Assembly: GCA_945883565.1 (NCBI GenBank)
Contig: CAMCXO010000001.1
Location: forward strand, 124,001 to 188,000
DNA length: 64,000 nucleotides
DNA from: Chryseobacterium gleum
GTDB taxonomy: Bacteria; Bacteroidota; Bacteroidia; Flavobacteriales; Schleiferiaceae
Direction: 5' to 3'
The notes under the pieces were generated by a model, which saw only the letters and a program-made list of their open reading frames with translations, made no database searches and was not told where the DNA came from. Made by a program: the position numbers and the translations under genes. This document shows, in pieces, positions 14,519-35,873 of the stretch. Each line of letters opens with the position of its first letter. Position 1 is the stretch's first letter.

Positions 14519-17344
14519 ATGGAACTTTCATCTGAATTGCCCAACACGAGAGACAATATTCAAATATTAGGAGCAAGAGTTCATAATTTGAAGAATATAA
14601 ATGTTAACATTCCAAAAAATAAACTGGTGGTTATTACTGGATTGAGTGGATCGGGCAAGTCTAGTTTGGCGTTTGACACTTTATATGCCGAAGGACAACG
14701 ACGTTATGTAGAAAGCTTATCGGCTTACGCTAGGCAGTTTTTAGGCAGATTGAATAAGCCCGATTGCGATGCCATAATTGGACTAACACCAGCCATCGCG
14801 ATTGAACAAAAGGTAACCAGCAAAAATCCTCGTTCAACAGTAGGCACAGCTACTGAAGTTTATGATTTTTTAAAATTATTATATGCTCGTTTAGGGAAAA
14901 CCATATCTCCAATAAGCGGAGATGAAGTTAAAAAACATAGCGTCACCGATGTTTTAAATTTTATATCTTCTTTAAATAAAGGTGAAAGGATTATGATTCT
15001 TGCACCACTCCAAAAAGACACAAGTTGGAAGAGTAAATTTGATCTACTTCTGAGCCAAGGCTTTGCTCGTATTCTGCATAAGAATGAAGTAAAAAGCTTG
15101 GGTGAAATGGTTTCAAATGAAGATAATCAACAATTAGATGTTGTTGACTTAGTTGTTGATCGAGCCATTGCAGATTTGAATGATGAAGAAAATAAAAACC
15201 GATTAGCCGATTCTATACAAACTGCTTTTTTTGAAGGTCATGGAATTTGCGAGGTTTTACAAGTTGATTCTAAGAAGAGACAAATTTTTAGCGATAAGTT
15301 CGAAGCAGATGGCATTCGGTTTGAAGTACCAAGTACCCATTTATTTAGTTTCAATACTCCATTGGGGGCATGTAAAAAGTGTGAAGGATTTGGAAGTATT
15401 ATCGGTATCGATGAGACGTTGGTAATTCCTGATGGTAGCAAATCCGTCTTTCAAGATTGCGTGGTAGCTTGGAAAGGTGACAAAATGCAAGAATGGAAAG
15501 ATGACTTTATTATTAAAGCCGCAGCTTATAACTTCCCAATTCATAGAGCATATAATGAGTTAAATGATGAGCAAAGAAAGTTATTATGGAAAGGTAAAGG
15601 AAACCTTAAAGGTATTGATGCGTTTTTTGAATTTGTAGAGCAAAATAGTTACAAGATTCAATATAGGGTAATGTTAGCCAGATATAGAGGCAAAACAAAC
15701 TGCAATGTTTGCGAAGGCAGCCGTTTATCGAAGTCGGCTTCTCATGTGTTTGTCTCAGGTAAAAGCATTGCTGAATTAGTCAATACTCCTCTTAATCAGC
15801 TTCTTGAGTTTTTCATAAGACTAAAATTTGAATCATACGAGGAGGCAATTGCCAAAAGAATTTTAGAGGAAATTCGTATTCGTTTAAGCTACTTATGCGA
15901 TGTTGGACTTGGTTATTTAACATTAAATAGAAATACATCCACACTCTCAGGTGGTGAATCACAGCGCATTCATTTGGCTACATCACTAGGGAGTAGCCTA
16001 GTAGGAAGTACATATATTTTAGATGAACCAAGCATCGGTTTGCATCCGAGAGACACTGAAAAACTAATTGGAGTTCTAAAGAAGCTAAGAGATTTAGGAA
16101 ACACTGTTGTAGTGGTTGAGCATGATGAAGAGATCATGCATGCAGCGGATTTGATTATTGACATAGGGCCAGAATCTGGATATAATGGCGGTGAGTTAGT
16201 TTTTCAAGGGGCATTTAATGATTTGAAATATGCCCAAAACAGCTACACAGCAGATTATCTTCTAGGTAAGCTGAAGCCTTATATTCCAAAAACCCCATTA
16301 AAACCATTTGGATTTTTAGAATTAAATGGCGCCCGCGAAAATAATTTAAAAGGTATAAATGTTAAATTTCCTTTAGGGGTTTTATGTGCAGTAACAGGCG
16401 TTAGCGGATCTGGAAAAAGCACTTTAGTTAAACAAGTTTTTTACCCGGCATTAGTGCGTAAACTGGGAGGTCAATCCGAAAGGCCAGGACGTTTTCAATC
16501 ATTGGAAGGAAACTTAAGTTTAATCCAATCGGTTGAAATGGTTGATCAGAACCCAATTGGTCGATCTTCTCGCAGCAATCCTGTTACCTATATAAAAGCT
16601 TTTGATGACATTCGAATGTTATTTGCTAGCCAAACCTTAGCAAAACAAAGAGGTTATCAAGCACGACATTTTTCATTTAATGTGTCGGGGGGAAGGTGTG
16701 AAGCATGTGAAGGTGAAGGGCAAGTTACCATTGAAATGCAATTTATGGCCGATGTTCATGTGGAGTGTGAAGTATGTAAAGGGAAAAAGTTTAAAGATGA
16801 AATACTGGAAATCAGAGTTTTTGAAAAGAATATTTTCGATATTTTAAATTTCACTGTTGTTGAAGCCATCAGTTTTTTTACTGAAGCTAATCAGTTGAAA
16901 ATATCCGAACATTTGAGCACTTTAAATGAAGTTGGCTTGGGCTATGTAAAACTAGGTCAGTCATCAAGTACGCTTTCTGGTGGTGAAGCACAGCGTATAA
17001 AGCTAGCAAGCTTTTTATTGAAAGGAAAGGATGCGGGTAACACATTATTCATTTTTGATGAACCCACAACCGGATTGCACTTCCATGACGTCGAAAAACT
17101 GCTTAAAAGCTTTAGAGCATTGCTCAAAAAGGGCCATAGCATCGTAGTAATCGAACACCACTCACAAGTAATTAAAGCTGCCGATTGGGTAATAGAATTG
17201 GGTCCTGACGGAGGGGATCTTGGTGGAAATCTAATTTTTGCTGGAGACAGAGAAACATTTAAAAGCGCTCATGACCAAACTTTAACTGCTCAATGGATTT
17301 TTAACAGCAACTCAAATGGCAAATCGCTAAAAAATCATATATGA
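14519..17344 (+). CDS. uvrA: Excinuclease ABC subunit A
   Basis: 941 residues, a standard UvrA length. It is the damage-sensing ATPase of nucleotide excision repair and loads UvrB. There are two ABC modules: Walker A GLSGSGKSS (41-49) and GVSGSGKST (about 627-635), with signatures STLSGGESQRI (about 474) and STLSGGEAQRI (about 817). Zinc-binding cysteine pairs are CKKC (about 284) with CNVC (about 394), and CEAC (about 727) with CEVC (about 750). The 3' end overlaps the convergent DUF6089 gene by 18 bp. Confidence 0.97.
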   Translation: MELSSELPNTRDNIQILGARVHNLKNINVNIPKNKLVVITGLSGSGKSSLAFDTLYAEGQRRYVESLSAYARQFLGRLNKPDCDAIIGLTPAIAIEQKVTSKNPRSTVGTATEVYDFLKLLYARLGKTISPISGDEVKKHSVTDVLNFISSLNKGERIMILAPLQKDTSWKSKFDLLLSQGFARILHKNEVKSLGEMVSNEDNQQLDVVDLVVDRAIADLNDEENKNRLADSIQTAFFEGHGICEVLQVDSKKRQIFSDKFEADGIRFEVPSTHLFSFNTPLGACKKCEGFGSIIGIDETLVIPDGSKSVFQDCVVAWKGDKMQEWKDDFIIKAAAYNFPIHRAYNELNDEQRKLLWKGKGNLKGIDAFFEFVEQNSYKIQYRVMLARYRGKTNCNVCEGSRLSKSASHVFVSGKSIAELVNTPLNQLLEFFIRLKFESYEEAIAKRILEEIRIRLSYLCDVGLGYLTLNRNTSTLSGGESQRIHLATSLGSSLVGSTYILDEPSIGLHPRDTEKLIGVLKKLRDLGNTVVVVEHDEEIMHAADLIIDIGPESGYNGGELVFQGAFNDLKYAQNSYTADYLLGKLKPYIPKTPLKPFGFLELNGARENNLKGINVKFPLGVLCAVTGVSGSGKSTLVKQVFYPALVRKLGGQSERPGRFQSLEGNLSLIQSVEMVDQNPIGRSSRSNPVTYIKAFDDIRMLFASQTLAKQRGYQARHFSFNVSGGRCEACEGEGQVTIEMQFMADVHVECEVCKGKKFKDEILEIRVFEKNIFDILNFTVVEAISFFTEANQLKISEHLSTLNEVGLGYVKLGQSSSTLSGGEAQRIKLASFLLKGKDAGNTLFIFDEPTTGLHFHDVEKLLKSFRALLKKGHSIVVIEHHSQVIKAADWVIELGPDGGDLGGNLIFAGDRETFKSAHDQTLTAQWIFNSNSNGKSLKNHI

Positions 17345-32170: not shown

Positions 32171-35033
<2,863 letters not shown>

Positions 35034-35054
35034 AAAACACAATGTCGCTTGCCC

Positions 35055-35116
35055 TTTGAAGACACCTAGCCCTATGCTCCTGAAGTGGTTAGAGGCACTT
35101 GTAGCATTAAAAGGGG
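35055..35116. repeat. Possible relative of the 4.8-4.9 kb intergenic element
   Basis: Non-coding stretch just after ligA. It shares the motifs TAGCCCTA and ACTTGTAGC with the element at 4815-4930 (AGCCCTAAGC, ACTTGTAGC), in a different order. The shared words are short, so this is a weak link. Confidence 0.2.
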
Positions 35117-35120
35117 TTCA

Positions 35121-35222
35121 CATTGCAATTGCTTTCAAAGGCTTGTAATATCTATGAACTCGTTTGTTGCTTTCACATCACGCCCCCATTGCAATTGCTT
35201 TCAAAGGCTGGTAATATCTATG
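35121..35222. repeat. Two 36-bp direct repeats separated by 30 bp (CRISPR-like spacing)
   Basis: Copy 1 is 35121-35156 and copy 2 is 35187-35222; they differ at one base (T at 35144 in copy 1, G at 35210 in copy 2). Both begin CATTGCAATTGCTTTCAAAG and end TAATATCTATG. The 30-base gap gives a 66-bp period, the dimensions of a type II-C CRISPR unit. The core TTGCTTTCAAAG and the TATCTATGAAC end of copy 1 resemble Bacteroidota type II-C repeats as I remember them. No cas gene lies in the window and no third copy is visible. Copy 2 ends directly at the rpe stop codon. It may be a relic array or an unrelated intergenic repeat. Confidence 0.6.
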
Positions 35223-35873
35223 TCACTTCAATAATTTTAATGCAGAAATCATTTCTATTGGACTTTCAGAGCCAAAAACAGTATTTCCCGCAACTAAAAT
35301 ATCAGCACCGACATTAATTAATTTTCCTGCATTGCTAAGAGAAACTCCACCATCAATTTCTATAAGGGCAGAGCTATTGTTTTTAATAATTAGTTCTTTC
35401 AAGCGGTCTACTCTTTTGTATGTTCTTTCTATAAACTTTTGACCACCAAAACCTGGATTAACCGACATCAAGCAAACAACGTCACAAATTTCCAAAACAT
35501 CTTCAAGTAAATCTACCGAAGTATGCGGATTAATAGCCACACCAGCCTTCATTTCCGATTTTTTTATGGCTTCAACGGTTCTATGTAAATGCGTCGAGGC
35601 CTCATAGTGAACGCTCAAAACATTGGCTCCCACGCTTTTAAAAGCGTCTATATAACGCTCAGGCTGAACAATCATTAAATGAACATCAAACACCTTTTGA
35701 GTTAACGGTCTCAATGCCTGAATTATAGGTAACCCAAAACTAATATTTGGAACAAAAACCCCGTCCATAATATCTAAATGAAACCAATCAGCCTCACTTT
35801 TATTCAATAACTCAGCAACCTCATGCAGTCGTGCAAAGTCAGCTGATAACAGAGAAGGTGCAATTATGGCCAT
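35223..35873 (-). CDS. rpe: Ribulose-phosphate 3-epimerase
   Basis: 216 residues. It interconverts ribulose-5-phosphate and xylulose-5-phosphate in the pentose phosphate pathway. The TIM-barrel landmarks are all present: APSLLSADFARL, the metal-binding WFHLDIMDGVFVPNISFG, DVHLMIVQPERYI, VCLMSVNPGFGGQKF and EIDGGVS. It is cytoplasmic. The stop codon abuts the second copy of the 36-bp repeat. Confidence 0.96.
   Translation of the reverse strand: MAIIAPSLLSADFARLHEVAELLNKSEADWFHLDIMDGVFVPNISFGLPIIQALRPLTQKVFDVHLMIVQPERYIDAFKSVGANVLSVHYEASTHLHRTVEAIKKSEMKAGVAINPHTSVDLLEDVLEICDVVCLMSVNPGFGGQKFIERTYKRVDRLKELIIKNNSSALIEIDGGVSLSNAGKLINVGADILVAGNTVFGSESPIEMISALKLLK

Follow-up and report, generated by a model that had tools for sequence, protein, structure and literature searches.

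A 36 bp repeat pair with a type II-C CRISPR-like core between ligA and rpe is probably a local duplication

The window analyzed here, a 64,000 nucleotide stretch of a 2.86 Mb draft genome (99.4% complete, 64 contigs), contains the convergent genes ligA and rpe (Table 1). The rpe side of the 189 bp gap between them is filled by two 36 bp direct repeats. An earlier note on this DNA had taken the pair for a solitary CRISPR-like array of type II-C. Its description of the site was accurate, including the coordinates, the 35/36 identity, the start-to-start distance of 66 bp with a 30 bp gap, the placement between ligA and rpe (both flanks are confirmed by Pfam) and the second copy touching the rpe stop codon. 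In the same-genus relatives examined, rpe and ligA have other neighbors, and the ligA-rpe junction is lacking. Thus, the junction, or the repeat site, is probably young. The window also encodes a 941 aa UvrA-type ABC protein (14519-17344, + strand) with UvrA interaction and DNA-binding domains. It matches the PADLOC model mad3 as well (E 1.3e-84), and is probably an ordinary UvrA.

Table 1. Features of the ligA-rpe region, in window positions.
Feature	Position	Strand	Remarks
ligA, NAD-dependent DNA ligase	33027..35033	+	Pfam; convergent neighbor
Rest of the intergenic region, ligA to copy 1	35034..35120		No further repeat, terminator-like hairpin or Rfam family
Repeat copy 1, CATTGCAATTGCTTTCAAAGGCTTGTAATATCTATG	35121..35156	+	36 bp
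Stretch between the copies, AACTCGTTTGTTGCTTTCACATCACGCCCC	35157..35186		30 bp
Repeat copy 2	35187..35222	+	One mismatch to copy 1 (35/36); next to the rpe stop codon
rpe, ribulose-phosphate 3-epimerase	35223..35873	-	Pfam; convergent neighbor

The two copies read CATTGCAATTGCTTTCAAAGGCT(T/G)GTAATATCTATG, with T/G as the sole mismatch, and the palindromes GCAATTGC and CTTTcAAAG lie within the repeat. The gap, as had been claimed, holds a 9-base piece of the repeat, TTGCTTTCA (35167-35175), which thereby occurs three times within 76 bp. An equally long run in common with the repeat was found in 0.24% of shuffled gaps and in 0.9% of genomic 30-mers. As a repeat, the pair is far above chance. A 28-mer core allowing up to three mismatches had no matches in 100 shuffles, and no other direct repeat of 22 bp or more within 300 bp is present anywhere in the window. 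There is no third copy, even a degenerate one, within 200 bp on either side, in agreement with the earlier note. On the minus strand, copy 1 would translate to NEFID, resembling the LigA C-terminus, with 14/16 bases paired. We rejected an inverted ligA fragment, since by a rough estimate for a 600 bp region this match is near chance.

The repeat is unique to this locus. The 28-mer core, again at up to three mismatches, occurs at two sites genome-wide, both of them in the pair, and a BLAST of 35110-35235 against the genome returned merely 14-19 base matches elsewhere. Scattered single copies across the genome, which had been named as an outcome that would speak against an array, were thus not found. 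A degenerate repeat pattern had no matches in the GTDB species genomes and IMG/VR (collections that possibly do not include the window's own genome), and 395 genomes of the class gave isolated matches at three mismatches alone, three of the five in ORFs and none paired. With no paired matches in any of these three sets, a wider repeat family was rejected. The repeat has no match in relatives (the order-level pattern is narrow and misses some II-C repeat types). Nothing resembling the repeat region was found in phage and plasmid collections, nor did IMG/VR contain an exact match to the 24 bases at the center of the gap. Most true CRISPR spacers are likewise without matches.

Other repeats were observed in passing. 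Close duplications also lie at contig ends of the window's own genome, G000 (L114:203, L120:19702 and L121:1-160), and one element, GGGCTTGTTCCTTTTGGCTTG and its complement, is present near both ends of its contig C1. A non-coding higher-order tandem repeat with units of about 63-64 bp, carrying GCATCCATGCCCATTTA and GCATCTATACCCATTTACAATGCGTACATGGCCAC, is found at L118:6165-6530 (G000:C1:86165-86530). A second tandem repeat (72 bp) follows at L118:6723-6900, both being within a 1.3 kb stretch without long ORFs.

The resemblance to type II-C repeats is partly real. The 36-mer contains a II-C-like core of 12-13 nt, AATTGCTTTCAAA, whose strand and register agree with those in II-C repeats, and the conserved II-C core TTGCTTTCAA is present at repeat offset 8. 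The core TTGCTTTCAAA exists in true arrays, and Bacteroidales arrays add TATCTTTGAAC behind it. The top alignment score, 26, was against the repeat of G709 (13 identical bases, AATTGCTTTCAAA), and the G006 repeat also scored 26. Random genomic 36-mers scored as well against 38 distinct repeats in 0.6% of cases (p ~0.006), and score plus exact register was equaled by 2/20,000 (about 1 in 10,000; p ~0.0001), values to be read in light of the site having been picked by a reader seeking CRISPR-like things. Gapped alignment to II-C repeats gave 25-27/36 identical bases. A profile of seven repeats run over 294 kb of the genome ranked the copies second and fourth, with E-values of 3.5 and 4.3. The II-C likeness of the 36-mer is therefore suggestive, but not decisive given how the site was selected. 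It is also partial: both copies begin with CATTGC, without GTTGTG and without the 3′ part of the long II-C repeat. In the G709 array (L154), several consecutive units repeat the spacer CAGGGTGGAGCGCATCAGGGATTGGCTCAA beside a variant starting with GTTGGG, i.e., units have been duplicated within that array.

True arrays differ from the pair in ways that are specific to this core. We searched 395 Bacteroidia-level genomes for TTGCTTTCAA cores in pairs, 58-84 bp apart. The 29 genomes that matched comprise 25 with true arrays and four with single pairs. In all 25 true-array genomes every core interval is 74-78 bp, and 416 of the 419 intervals in the survey fall in this range; the three outside it are that of the window, 66 bp, and those of two chance pairs (60 and 64 bp). 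True arrays carry GTTGTG before essentially every core, the exceptions being three GTTGGG in one array, one GATGTG and one isolated core. Of the four single pairs, one is that of the window, at 66 bp and with CATTGC, and the other three, at 60, 64 and 78 bp, are chance pairs; GTTGTG is missing from all. Unlike those chance pairs, the copies here match across 36 bp, and therefore represent a real duplication, though not one built as an array. In common with II-C arrays (GTTGTGATTTGCTTTCAAATTAGTATCTTTGAACCATTGRAAACARC, as in Bacteroidales, where several adjoin Cas9 ORFs, and relatives), the pair has the core TTGCTTTCAAA, with matching offset and strand, and a 30 bp gap. It differs from them in repeat length (36 versus 45-47 bp), period (66 versus 74-78 bp) and start (CATTGC versus GTTGTG), and in consisting of two copies only, without Cas9, Cas1 or a tracrRNA at the site.

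Within the family, arrays beside Cas9 have 45-47 bp repeats, a period of 75-77 bp and a TTGCTTTCAA-type core. G016 and G022 are the exception, with 36 bp repeats and a period of 66 bp like the pair. Their arrays are unlike it in having a different core (GATTGATTGA.. / TTTGATCAA..), a GTTGTG start, 11-23 copies and a position beside Cas9-like ORFs. Since family arrays fall into these two classes, the window combines the core of one class with the geometry of the other. The claim of II-C geometry fails for the core TTGCTTTCAAA, whose arrays have longer repeats and a wider period; arrays of 36 + 30 bp do exist within the family, with a different core. In G016, two adjacent type II-like arrays (L112:1955-4100) have 36 bp repeats that share the ends GTTGTGGATTGATTGA..ATGATCTTTGACACT and differ in their middles.

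The earlier note saw no Cas gene with the repeats. In the genome, Cas9 was detected neither by a family model nor with two real Cas9 proteins of type II-C as queries, and Cas1 was not detected by a family model that was positive in 9/14 control genomes. Searches with real type II-C Cas9 queries found no Cas9 in four same-genus genomes. The same kind of search was positive in 9/88 genomes of the family, all in other genera. Ten of the window's longest ORFs contained no Cas proteins or effectors. The copies have a slight anti-repeat look (ATTG.. for GTTG.., and TTTCACA upstream of copy 2). A tracrRNA model built from ten loci scored neither the site nor any part of the 294 kb genome sample, and we rejected a tracrRNA reading of the copies on that profile. 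The lack of cas9 and of a repeat match in relatives is what had been named in advance as counting against a CRISPR reading. That reading is supported only in part; the likeness of the core survives, while geometry, Cas9 and Cas1, and the relatives leave most of it unsupported.

We consider the pair to be probably a recent short local duplication of non-coding DNA with a II-C-like core that arose by chance. Replication slippage or template switching would be the most likely way in which a 36 bp stretch was duplicated at a distance of 66 bp, with a single base change since. Short repeats such as TTGCTTTCA would supply the microhomology, and a piece of the repeat inside the gap is natural for slippage, but odd for a spacer. 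The pair would have no guide-RNA function. There are only two adjacent copies, they are non-coding, and they are missing from relatives. In the 294 kb genome sample, 6 of 13 stretches carried one or more close duplications of 24 bp or longer, and such pairs are thus not uncommon in this genome. The pair resembles intergenic slippage duplications in having two near-identical non-coding copies tens of bases apart that are unique in the genome, but departs from the usual products in that its 36 bp length and 30 bp gap coincide with CRISPR geometry. That 36 + 30 is a canonical array geometry, found in the same family, argues against a duplication, as does a core that matches the strand and the exact register of II-C repeats, an agreement that so few random 36-mers equal. 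A slippage intermediate was also seen in no relative. Of the options that had been offered for the pair, a different intergenic repeat fits best, although a lone pair does not make a repeat family.

An unlikely alternative is that the pair is a relic of a II-C array, i.e., one spacer and two shortened repeats that became inert after the cas genes and the remainder were lost. The core at the II-C offset, the alignment scores and the gapped identity all speak for a relic, as do the II-C systems in other genera of the family. However, the GTTGTG end and the 3′ part are missing, the period is wrong for the core, cas9 and cas1 are lacking in the genome (and cas9 in same-genus genomes), and the tracrRNA model is silent at the site. 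A piece of the repeat recurs within the spacer, and CRISPRidentify counts spacer-repeat similarity of such kind among suspicious arrays (PMC7913763). All of the losses, moreover, are common to both copies. Repeats decaying independently would diverge more from each other than each from its ancestor. As the departures are common to copies that are 35/36 identical, independent decay of two repeats does not account for the pair. Because the copies are near-identical, a relic needs either a recently active unusual repeat type or the later duplication of one decayed repeat. For the former, searches for Cas9 and Cas1 show no cas gene left in the genome; the latter is local duplication again. It is very improbable that the pair is instead an orphan mini-array with one spacer and a shortened II-C repeat, whose transcript would guide a Cas protein in trans or serve as a regulatory small RNA. 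The lengths would fit a type VI-B (Cas13b) mini-array exactly, since repeats of VI-B systems measure 36 nt and their short crRNAs 66 nt (PMC8209922), but no effector was found in the ten ORFs scanned, and the pair is single genome-wide. Cas13b is said to recognize the structure of the repeat (PMC8209922), and single copies fold weakly. We regard this assignment as extremely unlikely.

It is also quite doubtful that the pair is a functional DNA or RNA element, e.g., a protein-binding site or an element for processing or termination of the rpe or ligA transcript. The near-identity of the copies, the palindromic parts and the location immediately after the rpe stop codon are consistent with such a role. 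Against it, the pair is conserved in neither genus, family, order nor class, no terminator-like site is present, and neither strand has a folding signal (a single copy reaches z -1.35 at best). The intergenic region gave no terminator or promoter match and nothing meaningful in Rfam, and the folding energy of both its strands is the same as that of shuffled sequence. An assembly artefact is barely credible. The assembly is a draft, but the pair would seem to be secure inside a 210 kb contig, with copies that differ at one base.

Were the pair a real array without cas genes, it would be an example of a guide retained without its effector. As a probable local duplication, it is a caution that even a two-copy repeat with perfect 36 + 30 geometry and a recognizable CRISPR core may not pass the tests for an array. 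The tests that separate arrays from look-alikes are the end motif, a period specific to the core, the cas genes, and departures that are common to both copies.
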